64,000 nucleotides of DNA from Serratia quinivorans (lineage in GTDB: Bacteria; Pseudomonadota; Gammaproteobacteria; Enterobacterales; Enterobacteriaceae). A program made the position numbers and the translations under genes. Where the stretch lies: positions 62,001-126,000 of the forward strand of contig NZ_CAMKGL010000012.1 of NCBI RefSeq assembly GCF_946227985.1, written 5' to 3'. Positions within the stretch are counted from its first letter, which is position 1. Every line of letters starts with the position of its first letter. A model generated the notes under the pieces. That model was not told the DNA's origin. It was given only the letters and a program-made list of their open reading frames with translations, and ran no database searches. Positions 30,312-35,630 of this stretch are shown here, in pieces.

Positions 30312-30611
30312 CTAACGTTGCAGGGAGTTTTTGCCTTGGGCAAACATAAACATCCGCTGAGCGATATCGTCAGCCTGTTTGATTTTTTGCTTTTGCGGCT
30401 CATTGCAGCGCTGGATGGCGCGAGCATAGGCCAGCTCATGCGCCTGGTCGATCATCGCGATAATCTTGTCGCGATCCTGTTTATCCAGATTGCCGAGCAT
30501 GGTGGTGATTATCGCCTGATAGGCGTTGGAGGCGGCGGTCAGCGACTTTTCTCTGGCTTCAAGTATCGCTACGCGTTGCATTAATTCCTGTAGTTGATCG
30601 GACTCTGACAT
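30312..30611 (-). CDS. Coiled-coil protein of unknown function
   Basis: This 99-residue soluble protein begins with a heptad-like helix (SESDQLQELMQRVAILEAREKSLTAA) and continues with helical segments rich in Gln, Lys and Asp. No signal or membrane segment is seen. The start follows GGAGATCGCT, a good ribosome site. It stands alone between ylaC (same strand) and the tRNA-like gene. It is not recognised. Confidence 0.7.
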   Translation of the reverse strand: MSESDQLQELMQRVAILEAREKSLTAASNAYQAIITTMLGNLDKQDRDKIIAMIDQAHELAYARAIQRCNEPQKQKIKQADDIAQRMFMFAQGKNSLQR

Positions 30612-30798
30612 AGCGATCTCCTGTTGCCGGGCAGCATACCTGCCTGATTACAGTTTAGCAAAGATCGTTGGAACGGAAGAAAACATAAAGAAAGGAAGAG
30701 AAACGGTTACGGCAAAGCACACCCGAAAAACCCAATAAGGAGCCGATAGTGCAAATCAACCCGGGTGCACTTTACGGTAACAGTTCACGAAAGGAAGC

Positions 30799-30893
30799 TG
30801 GCGCGCTATGCAGGACTCGAACCCGCGTCTATCAATTTTGTAGCCAATAAAGCATTTTAAAACCAACCACTCTGCCAACTGAGTTAATAGCGC
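30799..30893 (-). tRNA. tRNA-like gene with enlarged anticodon arm, isotype unclear
   Basis: Read on the minus strand, the 95 nt have a perfect 7-bp acceptor stem (GCGCTAT/ATAGCGC), discriminator G and encoded CCA. There is a perfect D stem (ACTC/GAGT) with GG in its loop, and a T arm with TTCGAGT loop and 5-bp stem. The part between D and T arms is 42 nt, about 20 too long. The best pairing is GTTGGTTTT with AAAATTGAT (several G-U), giving a 19-nt apical loop. If only the first seven bases after the stem count as loop, the anticodon would be UUA. A stable-RNA-type promoter lies upstream. Confidence 0.65.
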
Positions 30894-30914
30894 ATTCCTT
30901 TGCTTCGAGGAGGC

Positions 30915-30942
30915 ATTATCCATATTAATGCTATGGATTCAA
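30915..30942 (-). promoter_or_regulatory. Sigma-70 promoter for the tRNA-like gene
   Basis: On the minus strand TTGAAT (30942-30937) is 16 bases from GATAAT (30920-30915). A GC-rich discriminator (GCCTCC) follows, as is usual for stringently controlled stable-RNA promoters. The expected start lies about 15 bases before the mature 5' end of the tRNA-like gene. Confidence 0.65.
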
Positions 30943-31143
30943 GTTATCGAACCATGAACCGCTGCATTTGCAGAGAAATCTTATATTTTTGCCTATTTAA
31001 CCCTCAGCGAAAATCACTTTCCACCGATGAACATTAGTAATGGCCATTTTATGGCCCGTCTGGGACGTGTTTATTGTTAGTTAAAGCGCTGGATGCCACT
31101 ATAGCGCCTTCTGGGATCGTCGTTTTCTGTTATGGATAACACT

Positions 31144-32325
31144 ATGAAAGTCACTCCGCGCCGCTTGGCGTTTCTCCTGACCGCAGCCCTGCTGGTCATA
31201 CTTGCATTGATAGTGCTCTCTTTACAAAGCCGCCCGCAAGCCGCCGTGGTTACCGCACCGGCTCGTCTGGGCGACATTGAAAATGCCGTACTGGCCACCG
31301 GCAAACTTGATGCGATAGAACGGGTTAACGTTGGGGCGCAAGTTTCCGGCCAGGTCAAATCCCTGAAGGTCAAACTGGGCGACAAAGTCACCAAAGGCCA
31401 ACCTATTGCCGACATCGACGATCTGCCACAACGCAACGATCTGCGCACCGCCGAAGCGGCTCTGAACGTTACCAAAGCGGATTTGCAGGCCAAACAGGCA
31501 CTGTTGAAACAGGCCGAGTCCCGCTTTAAGCGCCAGAAACGCATGTTGATTGATGAAGCCAGTTCCCGCGAAGAGTTTGAGACTGCAGAGGCCACGCTAG
31601 CCGCTACCCGCGCCGAACTGATCGCATTGAATGCACGCATCGTGCAAAGCCAAATTGAGGTGGACAAGAAAAAGGTCGACCTGAGTTACACGCGCATTCT
31701 GGCGCCGATGGACGGCATCGTCATTGCGGTGATTACTCAACAAGGCCAAACGGTGAATGCCAACCAGAGCGCACCCACCATAATCAAACTGGCACAGTTG
31801 GACGTAATGACCATCAAGGCACAGATTTCCGAGGCCGACATTACCCGCGTTTCGCAGGGGCAAAAAGCCTACTTCACCATTTTCTCCGAGCCGGACAAGC
31901 GTTACGACGCTACACTGCGCACCGTCGAGCTGGCACCAGAATCGGTGATGAAAGACGACTCTATCTCCGGTAGCAGTTCGTCCTCCGGCTCCGGTAGCTC
32001 CAATGCTTCGGTATATTACAACGCATTGCTGGACGTCCCAAACCCGGATAACCGGCTGCGGATTGCCATGACGGCCCAGGTTTCATTGCTGCTCGGTGAA
32101 GCGAAAAACACGCTGTTGGTGCCGATCCAGGCGGTACATAAAACTGCAGATAATAAACAACAGGTACAAGTGCTGACCGGGGACAACCGGTTGGACATGC
32201 GCGAGGTGAAAACCGGCATTACCAATAACGTCGATATTCAAATCCTGTCCGGCTTGAAGGCAGGTGAAAACGTGGTGCTGGTGCATGAAAATACCCGGTC
32301 AGGCGAGGAAGATCTCTCACTGTGA
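31144..32325 (+). CDS. macA: MacA-type periplasmic adaptor of an ABC efflux pump
   Basis: This protein of about 393 residues has one N-terminal membrane anchor. The HlyD/RND-adaptor plan follows: ENAVLATGKLDAIERVNVGAQVSGQV, a long coiled-coil hairpin (about residues 95-180), the lipoyl half PMDGIVIAVITQQGQTV, and a beta-barrel. A Gly/Ser stretch (GSSSSSGSGSS) near residue 285 is longer than in E. coli MacA and is typical of PvdR-like adaptors. ATG at 31144 is preferred (GGAT upstream), with 31132 possible. It overlaps macB (GTGA). It links MacB to the outer-membrane channel encoded next. Confidence 0.92.
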   Translation: MKVTPRRLAFLLTAALLVILALIVLSLQSRPQAAVVTAPARLGDIENAVLATGKLDAIERVNVGAQVSGQVKSLKVKLGDKVTKGQPIADIDDLPQRNDLRTAEAALNVTKADLQAKQALLKQAESRFKRQKRMLIDEASSREEFETAEATLAATRAELIALNARIVQSQIEVDKKKVDLSYTRILAPMDGIVIAVITQQGQTVNANQSAPTIIKLAQLDVMTIKAQISEADITRVSQGQKAYFTIFSEPDKRYDATLRTVELAPESVMKDDSISGSSSSSGSGSSNASVYYNALLDVPNPDNRLRIAMTAQVSLLLGEAKNTLLVPIQAVHKTADNKQQVQVLTGDNRLDMREVKTGITNNVDIQILSGLKAGENVVLVHENTRSGEEDLSL

Positions 32326-34262
32326 ACACTATCATTGAGCTGAAAGGTATCGGCCGCACCTACACCAATGGCAGCCAGCCGCTGACCGTCCTGAAAAATA
32401 TCAACCTGAGCATCGCTGCCGGGGAATTGGTCGCAATCATTGGTGCTTCTGGCTCCGGCAAATCCACGCTGATGAACATCATTGGCTGTCTGGACGTGCC
32501 GGACCAGGGTGACTATTACATCAGCGGCCAAAACGCGGCTCACCTATCGCCGGACCAACTGGCCAGGCTTCGTCGCGAACACATTGGTTTTATCTTCCAG
32601 CGTTATCATCTGATGCCGGATATCAGCGCGCTGGGCAACGTCGAGATCCCTGCGATTTATGCCAACAGCAAGCGAGACCAACGCCGAGTGCGTGCGGCGC
32701 AACTGTTGGCCCGACTCGGGCTGGAAGGTCGTGAACACCATAAACCCGGTCAGCTCTCCGGCGGCCAGCAACAGCGCGTCAGTATCGCTCGTGCGTTAAT
32801 CAACGGCGCTGAAATCATCCTGGCGGATGAACCCACCGGTGCCCTGGACACTCGATCAGGTCAGGAAGTGCTGGAGATCCTCAGTGAACTTAATCAGCGC
32901 GGCCATACGGTAGTGATCGTCACTCACGATATGAAGGTGGCGCAGCATGCACAGCGCATCATCGAACTGCAGGACGGTGAGATAGTCGCCGACAGTGGTC
33001 GTAAATCGGCACTTCCTCTGCCGGTAATGAAAAAGACCCCAACGGTTGCCCAAGGCTACTGGCAGAGTCTGCTCGATCGCACCCGCGAATCGTTACAGAT
33101 GGCACTGAAGGCCATGAATGCCCATCGCTTGCGTACCGCACTGACCATGACCGGCATCATTTTCGGCATTGCTGCGGTGGTGACGGTGGTCGCGCTGGGT
33201 GAAGGTGCCAAGCAGCGCACGCTGGAGAGTATTAAAAGCCTGGGCACCAACGTGGTCAGCATCTATCCCGGCCGTGATTTCTTTGATGACGCCATCGACA
33301 GCATCCGCACTCTGGTACCGGCAGATGCCGACGCGCTGGCCCGCCAAAGCTTTGTCGATAGCGTCAGCCCTGAGGTCACTGCCTCAGACAGTATCCATTT
33401 TCGCAGCAAATCAGCCAACGCGTCGATCACGGGTGTTGGACGCGATTATTTACGCGTTAACGGCCTCACTCTGCTGCAAGGTCGCAATTTCCAGGACGAC
33501 CGCAACGCCCTACAGGAAGTGATCATTGACGAGAACGCACGCCAGTCGTTGTTCAGTGATTTCGGCGTAGAGCCGCTAGGCCAGATCGTGTTTCTTGGCG
33601 CAGTACCGGCCCGGGTGATTGGCGTGGTTCAAAGTAACCAGGACTCAGCCCCCAACCGCATCAGAGTGTGGATGCCCTATACCACCGTCATGTACCGCAT
33701 GGTGGGGCAAACCAAGTTGAGCAGCATCAGCGTAAGGTTGAAAGATGACGTGGCCAACGAAGCCGCTGTCGCCGCTATTAACCAGTTGCTGACCCAGCGT
33801 CACGGCGCTAAAGACTTTATGTTGTTCAACCTCGATAAATTCCGTAAGTCGATCGAAAGAACGTCGATGACACTCAGCCTGCTGATCCTGATGGTGGCCT
33901 CAATTTCCCTGATCATCGGCAGCCTCGGCGTGATGAACATCATGCTGGTCTCGGTGACCGAACGGACGCATGAAATCGGTGTGCGTATGGCCGTCGGCGC
34001 ACGTCGCAGCGACATTATGCAGCAATTTATGATCGAGGCGGTGCTGGTCTGCCTGATCGGCGGCGTACTGGGCATTTTACTGTCTTTCACCGCCGGCTCG
34101 CTGTTCACCCTGCTGGCGGGCGGCATGCTCACTGCCATCTATTCCTGGCAAGCTGCCGCCGTGGCCTTTTGCTGCTCCACTCTGATCGGCATGATCTTCG
34201 GTTATCTCCCGGCCCGCAAAGCGGCGCGGATGGATCCGGTCGTTTCACTGGCCAGCGAGTAA
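32322..34262 (+). CDS. macB: MacB-type ABC transporter (ATPase-permease fusion)
   Basis: This 646-residue protein fuses an N-terminal ATPase to a four-helix permease. The Walker A (GASGSGKST, residues 41-49), signature [15 protein letters not shown] and Walker [11 protein letters not shown] are intact. The MacB periplasmic domain and the C-terminal FtsX-like helices ([28 protein letters not shown]) follow. It starts with GTG overlapping the macA stop. MacB works by mechanotransmission to expel substrates from the periplasm: macrolides, siderophores or peptides, depending on species. Confidence 0.95.
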
Positions 34263-34265
34263 CTT

Positions 34266-35630
34266 ATGAAAATTGTATCCCCCCTGGCGTTATGCCTCGC
34301 CGCCCTGCTCAGCACCGGCTGCGGCAATGCGTTGAAAAGCAAATATCAGCCTCCGAAGGTGGACTATCCGTCCCAATGGCAACCCGGTGCCGATGCCGCT
34401 ACGTCAGTCCCTTTTGCCTGGCATGACTTCCACGATCCCCAGCTAGATCACTGGTTACAACAGGTCATGCTGGCTAATAACGATCTGGCCGCTGCCGCGT
34501 TGCGCGTCTATCGTGCCCAGTTGGCGGCCCAACGGGTCGATATCGGCACCGATCCCAGCATAAACGCGACGCTCAATAGCGGCGCCAGCACCGCCCTGTC
34601 CAATTCGTCCCCGTGGAATAAAAACAGCAGCGCCAACCTCGGTGTCAGCTATGAAGTCGATCTGTGGGGCAAACTGGCACGACAGCGCGACGCAGCAGAC
34701 TGGGCCAGCCAGGCCACCCAGCAGGATTTGCAAAGTGCACGTTTGGCCTTGCTCGCCAGCGCCAGCAAAAATTACTGGCGTATAGGCTTTATCAATCAAC
34801 GGATCGGCGTCAGTCAGCAAAATATTGCCTATTCCCGGCAGACCCTGCAGTTGGTCAATGCCCGCTACCGTGCCGGCAGCATCTCTTCATTGGACGTGGT
34901 GGACGCCGAGCAGAATCTGATCAATCAGGAGAGCAGCCATCTGGCGCTGTTGCGTGAGCGTCAGCAAGCCTTGAACGAACAAACCGTGTTACTGGGTTCA
35001 CCACCAGGTAAGGCTTTGGTCGAACCCGCCCGTTTGCCCACCGGTCCGCTGCCGCAAATCAATGCCGGTATCCCGGTCAACGTGCTGCGCCATCGACCGG
35101 ATATCAGCGCCAAAGAGTTGCGGCTGCGTGAAGCATTGGCTAACGTCGATGTGAAGCGTACCCAGTACTATCCGGCCTTCAGCCTGACCGGTTCATTGGG
35201 TGCCAGCAGTACCGCCTTGCTGGAATTTTTGCGCAATCCGTTGGCCTCGGTGGGGGCTGGGTTGTCGCTGCCGTTCCTTGAATGGCGGCAGATGGATGTG
35301 GATATCAAAATTGCCCGCAGTGACTACGACCTGCAGGTGCTGGAATTCAAACAGGCGCTGTATAAAGCCATGGCCGATGTGGACGATGCCTTGTCGTTGC
35401 GTAGTCAATTGATAGCGCAGGAAAAACACTTACGGGCCTCGGTGGCGTTGGCGCAAAAATCTGAACGCTTGAATGAGGTCCGCTACCGGCAAGGCGCCGT
35501 CCCCATCAGCTTCTGGCTGGATGCGCAAAATCGCCGTAGGCTGGCAGAACTGGCGCTGGATGAAAACCGTTTTGGTCAATATCAAAACCTGGCACAACTC
35601 TACCTGGAATTCGGCGGCTCAGCTCAATAA
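34266..35630 (+). CDS. Outer-membrane efflux factor (OprM/OpmQ-type lipoprotein)
   Basis: This 454-residue protein has a lipoprotein signal (LCLAALLSTGC) and the NodT/OprM architecture: two repeats of beta-hairpin plus long helices, with LGVSYEVDLWGKL and VLRHRPDI as family motifs. It lies 3 bases after macB, so the operon encodes its own exit duct, unlike E. coli macAB, which uses TolC. The three-gene set resembles pvdRT-opmQ of Pseudomonas in composition. A terminator follows. Confidence 0.92.
   Translation: MKIVSPLALCLAALLSTGCGNALKSKYQPPKVDYPSQWQPGADAATSVPFAWHDFHDPQLDHWLQQVMLANNDLAAAALRVYRAQLAAQRVDIGTDPSINATLNSGASTALSNSSPWNKNSSANLGVSYEVDLWGKLARQRDAADWASQATQQDLQSARLALLASASKNYWRIGFINQRIGVSQQNIAYSRQTLQLVNARYRAGSISSLDVVDAEQNLINQESSHLALLRERQQALNEQTVLLGSPPGKALVEPARLPTGPLPQINAGIPVNVLRHRPDISAKELRLREALANVDVKRTQYYPAFSLTGSLGASSTALLEFLRNPLASVGAGLSLPFLEWRQMDVDIKIARSDYDLQVLEFKQALYKAMADVDDALSLRSQLIAQEKHLRASVALAQKSERLNEVRYRQGAVPISFWLDAQNRRRLAELALDENRFGQYQNLAQLYLEFGGSAQ

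Follow-up and report, generated by a model that had tools for sequence, protein, structure and literature searches.

A tRNA-like gene conserved in Serratia and its nearest genera carries an extended arm in place of the anticodon arm and is followed by a conserved three-way-junction RNA element

The window, i.e. the whole stretch of 64,000 nucleotides of Serratia quinivorans DNA that was analysed, contains a single tRNA gene according to ARAGORN. This gene lies at 30799-30893 on the minus strand and was returned as type '???' without an amino acid. The Rfam tRNA model (RF00005) matches 30802-30893 of the same strand with 44.3 bits at a gathering score of 29 and puts the extra bases of the gene (22 of them unshown) inside the anticodon loop. 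Since the 82 Rfam tRNA matches in the same genome range from 33.2 to 74.6 bits, this score is low but within the accepted range. The features considered here all lie on the minus strand and are given in 5' to 3' direction:

30915..30942, minus strand: sigma-70-type promoter-like site TTGAAT-16-GATAAT, 21 nt upstream of the tRNA-like 5' end
30799..30893, minus strand: tRNA-like RNA gene, 95 nt, CCA encoded (ARAGORN; Rfam tRNA, 44.3 bits; 13 distinct homologous versions)
30887..30893, minus strand: acceptor stem, 5' strand, pairing with 30803-30809 (7/7 pairs, invariant in 13 versions)
30869..30884, minus strand: D arm with 4-bp stem and loop AGTTGGCA (4/4 pairs, invariant in 13 versions)
30859..30867, minus strand: extended anticodon-arm helix, 5' strand GTTGGTTTT (9 pairs possible in 13/13 versions)
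30840..30858, minus strand: terminal part of the extended arm, variable region of the RNA (19 nt here, 19-21 nt in relatives)
30831..30839, minus strand: extended helix, 3' strand AAAATTGAT (pair count in homologous versions)
30810..30826, minus strand: T arm GCGGG TTCGAGT CCTGC (5/5 pairs, invariant in 13 versions)
30799..30815, minus strand: 17-bp core common to both prophage ends in genome G006, attachment site (same letters in the window)
30706..30781, minus strand: three-way-junction RNA element (fold z, 21 distinct versions, 3 double-change pairs)
30647..30662, minus strand: putative promoter-like stretch TTTGCTAAACTGTAAT of the IraP-like gene, after both RNA elements
30312..30611, minus strand: 99-aa ORF, IraP-like, below both curated cut-offs

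Read on the minus strand from 30893 to 30799, the tRNA-like gene consists of GCGCTAT TA ACTC AGTTGGCA GAGT G GTTGGTTTT AAAATGCTTTATTGGCTAC AAAATTGAT, followed after AAAATTGAT by AGAC GCGGG TTCGAGT CCTGC ATAGCGC G CCA. It thereby possesses the 7-bp acceptor stem, the D and T arms with their tertiary-contact bases and the CCA end of an elongator tRNA. The T stem of the window copy includes one G-U pair and carries the loop TTCGAGT, the variable loop comprises 4 nt (AGAC), the discriminator is G, and 42 nt separate the D and T arms. When numbered by eye, the core bases T8, A14, G15, G18 G19, A21, T54 T55 C56 and A58 are in place, and C48 stands opposite G15. Part of this reading of the core bases follows generally established rules of tRNA tertiary contact. 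Other such rules are given in a published account (PMC7609411). The initial annotation had described a tRNA-like gene with intact acceptor, D and T arms, an encoded CCA and about 20 extra bases in the anticodon arm, and ARAGORN, the Rfam score and the reading of the sequence all agree with this description.

Several known kinds of enlarged tRNA genes were considered and rejected. A type II tRNA for Leu, Ser or Tyr does not fit, just as had been stated earlier, because Rfam sets the extra bases in the anticodon loop and the variable loop is of 4 nt only. For a self-splicing intron, the Rfam search of the window at the gathering threshold returned nothing apart from the tRNA, and the extra sequence amounts to about 20 nt. 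The acceptor and T stems measure 8/5 or 9/3 in tRNA-Sec and allo-tRNAs, which also carry a long variable arm; they measure 7/5 in 13 of 13 versions of the tRNA-like gene. As a whole, the 95 nt fold with ordinary energy (z -0.30), and it is for its conservation, not for this unremarkable energy, that the gene is judged to be real.

Across three genera the gene is present in 29 of 33 genomes. In the genus of the window 26 of 30 genomes match a 211-base query in BLAST searches, and the two nearest genera carry the gene in 2/2 and 1/1 genomes. Carriers include S. marcescens, S. plymuthica, S. proteamaculans, S. grimesii, S. liquefaciens, S. rubidaea and Serratia sp. AKBS12; the 14 matching contigs found among named genomes are all from Serratia, and most overlap with genomes already counted. 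When a draw from the family was searched by BLAST, nine of 198 genomes matched, six of them with the real gene. The matches in G058, G127 and G136 are stretches of 21-29 nt inside ordinary Val or Arg tRNAs, with one of the two match places in G136 being a lone tRNA 3' end. A covariance model, R1, was built from 13 versions of the tRNA-like gene and was run with stricter filters whenever more than 40 genomes were searched. In the family, at least nine of 392 genomes scored over 116 bits, the next best score among the matches listed being 56.8 bits for matches of 76 nt; at the 11 loci sampled from these next-best matches, what R1 had hit proved to be ordinary Lys and Val tRNAs. In the class draw, two of 369 genomes passed 1e-14, that of the window itself and G698; the match in the latter spans 76 nt with 64.6 bits, and only the window's own genome reaches the strength of a real match. 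Phages searched with a 95-nt query, viral contigs searched with an exact pattern, and plasmids and E. coli genomes searched with a 199-nt query gave no match. On the basis of these draws the gene is, as far as searched, confined to Serratia in the broad sense and nearly universal there.

The four genomes without the tRNA-like gene are small (1.5 to 3.6 Mb). In these, R1 finds just matches of 76-78 nt with at most 54.8 bits, i.e. of the size and score of ordinary tRNAs. Where genomes shrink, the RNA is dispensable, since it is absent from all four while the tRNA-sized matches stay. Three of them (G025, G026 and G027; loci L173, L174 and L175) have an IraP-like gene with internal stops, and in the fourth this gene was not found; remnants of the RNA elements were sought at the three loci with the broken gene and none were detected. 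As the neighbouring gene too is broken or was not found, the loss provides no specific argument.

The versions compared differ in few places. Among the 13 distinct versions present in the loci compared, 13 of 97 columns of alignment A3 vary, and nine of these fall within the 21 loop columns. Outside columns 36-56, variation is confined to four of 76 columns (9, 27, 57 and the discriminator, 94). Measured against the window copy, eleven relatives show 0-2 changes in the 76 core positions; in the same eleven, identity is 61-85% over the 100 bases upstream of the gene and ranges from 32/39 down to 12/33 at the four-fold degenerate sites of the IraP-like gene next to it. As judged from these comparisons, the conservation pattern is that of a working RNA gene and not of a relic. 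That the locus is a decaying tRNA without function is hardly credible: a normal anticodon arm cannot form and the gene is absent from the four small genomes, but 0-2 changes in 76 core positions stand against 36-82% identical four-fold sites next door. The initial annotation had likewise argued against decay and had named random drift in the stems of related strains as the contrary outcome; such drift did not occur, the stems being nearly invariant.

What distinguishes the gene from an ordinary tRNA is the part between the D and T arms. The standard anticodon arm is made up of a 5-bp stem and a 7-nt loop, as stated in PMC7609411. In the tRNA-like gene the span between position 26 and the variable loop amounts to 37-39 nt among the versions, and a 5-bp anticodon stem with a 7-nt loop and a fixed anticodon is not seen. 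A 7-nt anticodon loop common to all 13 versions was sought by eye and none was found. Instead, GTTGGTTTT and AAAATTGAT can form a helix of nine pairs, four of which are G-U in the window copy, and dinucleotide shuffles of the 41-nt middle part reached a helix of at least nine pairs in that register in 43 of 20000 cases. This 9-bp helix can be formed in every version (13 of 13), with 100% of cells pairing. Two changes are seen in it, both of which preserve pairing (A-U to G-U), and a search for double, two-sided changes among the 13 versions found none; a shuffle control of the alignment is uninformative here, as 500 of 500 shuffles reach the same pairing. The helix belongs to the minimum-energy fold in eight of 13 versions, with other pairings preferred in five. 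Mean pair probabilities across versions are 0.01-0.62 for the extended-arm helix and 0.05-0.74 for the D stem, while the acceptor and T stems reach at least 0.95. Energy folding is weak evidence either way because the same program fails to fold the tRNA-Lys of this genome as a cloverleaf. The predicted fold of the extended arm as a 9-bp helix is therefore not proven. The enclosing helix proposed in the initial annotation thus stands as far as pairing in all versions is concerned, and lacks the double changes and the consistent best fold that would strengthen it.

The extended arm bears directly on the question of decoding. ARAGORN, when applied to five relatives, proposed the anticodons ttt (Lys) twice, ata (Tyr) once, the stop-reading tta once and '???' once. 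As its call changes between these five relatives, a UUA anticodon does not characterise the family. The UUA suppressor that had been envisaged earlier is accordingly not supported, with tta proposed in just one of the five relatives and a loop that varies in sequence and length. The idea of a small removable insert fared no better, for the extra bases occur in every one of the 13 versions, with some of them conserved, and no intron family reaches the Rfam gathering score. In fact, 12 loop columns never vary in the 13 versions; they read ATG, CTT and TTGGCT. Columns 29-31 would form three consecutive G-U pairs in the anticodon-stem part and thus a poor decoding stem.

On 36 stretches of the same genome ARAGORN called 79 tRNAs with the usual anticodon set; that this set reads all codons follows from the wobble rules. 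The ordinary tRNAs supply the usual anticodons, and therefore no codon should depend on the tRNA-like gene. A decoding or suppressor tRNA, from which the extra bases would be removed after transcription or whose large loop would present a triplet, can be reconciled with the good tRNA score, with the anticodons proposed by ARAGORN in four of the five relatives scanned and, by conservation alone, with the invariant ATG, CTT and TTGGCT, which leave room for a fixed triplet. It is nevertheless highly improbable, given that the proposed triplet differs between relatives, that the loop changes in length and sequence, that three G-U pairs would follow each other in the anticodon-stem part, and that there is neither an intron family at the gathering score nor a shortage of ordinary tRNAs with the usual anticodons. 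A non-decoding tRNA-like RNA, one of the possibilities raised in the initial annotation, is most likely because no 7-nt anticodon loop is shared and ordinary tRNAs suffice. As a separate observation, the same genome (G000) contains a 75-nt gene called tRNA-Leu(taa), which has no long variable arm and, by eye, an odd anticodon loop; it is possibly of phage origin.

In one genome, G006, foreign DNA of about 38.6 kb (L026:1646-3145, L180, L181) lies downstream of the tRNA-like gene. A tyrosine integrase gene lies 156 bases after the tRNA-like gene, and genes for terminase, portal, head, needle, ejection and tail-spike proteins are found towards the far end of the insert. All of the ten prophage proteins scanned have PHROG matches, and the gene set is read as that of a P22-like prophage. 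The last 17 bases of the tRNA-like gene, TCCTGCATAGCGCGCCA, are repeated at the other end of the prophage. The tRNA-like gene is left whole, as is usual for integration at tRNA sites. With a core of 17 bp, integration explains the conservation of the last 17 bases only. On this count it is very unlikely that the locus is a relic, a tRNA body maintained merely as integration site for mobile elements using its 3' end, even if the prophage with its tyrosine integrase and 17-bp core in one genome shows such use. The 5' acceptor strand, the D arm, the helix strands, the promoter-like site and the downstream element are conserved too, the 5' half is nearly invariant, and the match is split in only one of the 26 carrier genomes of the genus.

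The three-way-junction element begins 17 nt after the CCA of the tRNA-like gene in the window. It is composed of a long stem, an inner 7-bp hairpin with the 7-nt loop TTGCACT and a small CCU/GGG hairpin. Folding of 30650-30798 gave z -3.48, and RNAalifold predicted 27 pairs from 21 distinct versions. Counted on a 26-pair structure, 96.9% of cells pair as compared to 94.8% in shuffles (0/500 as high), seven cells carry double changes as compared to 1.7 (0/500 as high), and double changes occur at three pairs (columns 4-77, 5-76 and 7-74) as compared to 1.3 (29/500 as high). The covariation score, which like the other covariation figures is inflated by kinship among the sequences, is 0.128 as compared to 0.091 in shuffles (0/500 as high) and 0.017-0.051 in slid versions. 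Unpaired cells are found at columns 3, 4, 7, 9, 10, 21 and 22 (4, 4, 2, 3, 2, 1 and 1, respectively). The inner hairpin hardly varies, its loop TTGCACT becoming GTGCACT in two versions. BLAST matches the element at a single place in the window's genome, and Rfam gives no match to it at the gathering threshold.

The junction element and the tRNA-like gene go together. Both occur in the same six of 198 family genomes, and in 28 of the 29 carriers the inner hairpin is situated at most 120 bases downstream of the tRNA-like gene; in the 29th, G006, the element sits beyond the prophage. From distance and strand we infer that the two are co-transcribed. A pattern scan of 30600-31150 found no intrinsic terminator, and the junction element could therefore also end the transcript.

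Upstream, TTG-19-GATAAT precedes the tRNA-like gene in 29 of 29 genomes, at the same distance in 28 and one base shorter in one. The initial annotation had regarded the promoter as kept, and the site is indeed conserved throughout; its occurrence as such means less, two sites of this kind being found in 551 bases as compared to 1.1 in shuffles. In several relatives GGCGCCCC follows after GATAAT, which we take to resemble the G+C-rich discriminator of stable-RNA promoters.

Downstream of both RNA elements lies the 99-aa ORF, which matches Pfam PF10796 with E 0.00059 (20.9 of 23.2 bits) and NCBIfam PRK10244 with 25.7 of 78 bits. Its resemblance to IraP, an anti-adaptor of RpoS, is weak, and it is possibly an unrecognised branch of the family of anti-adaptors. 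The ORF is followed by ylaC. CTTTGCTARACT is kept in the 25 regions aligned, and a TGCTAnACT stretch, judged by eye, precedes the IraP-like gene in six of seven printed loci that lack the tRNA-like gene; the sequence suggests that TTTGCTAAACTGTAAT may serve as promoter of the downstream gene. Matches to the IraP-like gene, a few of them weak, were obtained in 23 of 198 genomes and 18 of 154 genera. Fourteen loci from 17 genomes with the IraP-like gene and without the tRNA-like gene contain no tRNAs and no R1 matches. A role of the RNAs as leader of the IraP-like gene is weakened by these findings, as the gene is widespread without the RNAs and the promoter-like stretch in front of it comes after both of them. 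Most likely the RNA elements came later and are a separate unit, since the IraP-like loci scanned elsewhere are without tRNA or R1 match and the gene has this promoter-like stretch of its own.

On the plus strand of the window, 31132-35630 encodes a MacA-like adaptor, which stays below its cut-off (295 of 342 bits); by eye, the ORFs after it resemble an ABC transporter of MacB type and an outer-membrane factor, and in the relative L153 the sequence of this region looks different by eye. The initial annotation mentions neither the downstream RNA element nor the IraP-like neighbour nor the use of the gene as a prophage integration site.

The tRNA-like gene very probably specifies a functional, non-decoding tRNA-like RNA. 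The wider statement, that it is a conserved non-decoding tRNA domain within a small two-domain noncoding RNA of Serratia and the nearest genera, is the one we lean towards with some reservation. The RNA is probably regulatory or structural and not engaged in reading the genetic code. A tRNA-type promoter would drive a short transcript with two RNA domains, the tRNA-like part and the three-way junction. As the acceptor stem, the D/T contacts and the CCA, on which proteins that process or bind tRNA depend, are kept, the tRNA-like domain should be recognised by RNase P and the 3' trimming enzymes, which would either cut it out or use it as a boundary. Its ribosome-facing end would have been replaced by a longer arm without recognisable anticodon loop. 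Most likely, by analogy with what has been proposed for tRNA-Other of the Bacillus cereus group, the RNA would provide a stable scaffold within a regulatory RNA, with the extended arm, the released junction RNA or both as the binding part. A more specific version is conceivable but tentative: a new noncoding-RNA family in which the tRNA domain would be a processing and stability module, tRNA enzymes would release the junction as a small RNA, and the enlarged arm would be a head for base pairing or protein binding; transcription would start from a promoter of growth-rate type, with an IraP-like stress gene next to it.

The preserved tRNA body is open to two further readings. A synthetase might charge the RNA, and a specialised tRNA that is still aminoacylated could donate its amino acid outside the ribosome, to cell-wall, lipid or peptide-modifying enzymes; this would account for a preserved body and CCA without a preserved anticodon. 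The intact acceptor, the CCA and the tRNA core in 13 versions are in line with this. Serine identity is linked to a long variable arm and alanine identity to G3-U70, neither of which is present, and the discriminator changes from G to A in one version, which is unexpected for a strong identity element. The neighbours covered by the analysis comprise the IraP-like gene, ylaC and the MacA-like adaptor. An anticodon is not always needed for charging, as E. coli tRNA-Leu stays active in variants that lack both the anticodon arm and the variable arm, according to a review (PMC9976931); the same source gives A73 as required for leucine identity, whereas 12 of 13 versions have G73. Taken together, an aminoacylated donor is unlikely. 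A decoy or sponge that imitates a tRNA and holds a tRNA enzyme, such as EF-Tu, RNase P, an enzyme of tRNA modification or, from toxin or phage systems, an anticodon nuclease, agrees with the complete tRNA body and the changed anticodon end. It leaves the accompanying three-way-junction element without a reason, and a decoy for an anticodon nuclease should keep a recognisable anticodon loop, none of which is common to the versions; we consider it quite unlikely.

Among the ordinary tRNAs of the same genome, the closest by the letters of its body is tRNA-Lys (UUU) with a score of 42, followed by Val and Arg tRNAs with 41 each. Lys and Val tRNAs are also among the next R1 matches, with at most 56.8 bits among the matches listed as compared to over 116 bits for the real gene. 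tRNA-Lys (UUU) has a normal anticodon arm, and the likeness of the body letters is no proof of descent. Natural tRNAs with non-standard arms, some of them with lengthened anticodon stems, offer another comparison; their acceptor branch is longer and their variable arm is long, whereas the Serratia gene combines acceptor and T stems of 7 and 5 bp with a variable loop of 4 nt and has no anticodon loop common to its versions. In the tRNA-microRNA transcripts of herpesviruses, a tRNA-like domain is followed by a hairpin RNA in one transcript. These belong to a eukaryotic virus and involve other enzymes, and the analogy is one of layout only.

The closest precedent is a pseudo-tRNA of the Bacillus cereus group, tRNA-Other (Rogers et al., 2012, PMC3399842). 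RNAs of this type are tRNA-like without being used for decoding, belong to a larger transcript with a regulatory effect and adjoin integrated mobile DNA. For the Serratia gene, a lack of decoding is argued from sequence (the triplet proposed by ARAGORN changes, no loop is common to the versions and the usual tRNA set is present), and the conserved structured neighbour is suggestive of a larger transcript. Integrated mobile DNA adjoins the gene in one genome in the form of the P22-like prophage of G006 with its 17-bp core. tRNA-Other resides in Bacillus and carries a Trp anticodon (PMC3399842), whereas the Serratia gene has an arm of 37-39 nt instead. The Serratia gene is also set apart by the conserved junction element that follows it and by its genus-wide spread, the comparison being one of descriptions, not of sequences. 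Among the open-access titles and abstracts searched, none describes this gene or a tRNA body that combines an enlarged anticodon arm with a conserved junction RNA. The kind as such is already known, because pseudo-tRNAs with roles outside translation are known.

To our knowledge, few bacterial tRNA-like genes with a role outside translation have been described. ARAGORN labels the Serratia gene as an odd tRNA with changing anticodons. With its fixed tRNA body and replaced anticodon arm, and its conservation throughout a genus to which common laboratory species belong, it offers a direct way to ask what a non-decoding tRNA is used for, a question that the companion element renders testable.
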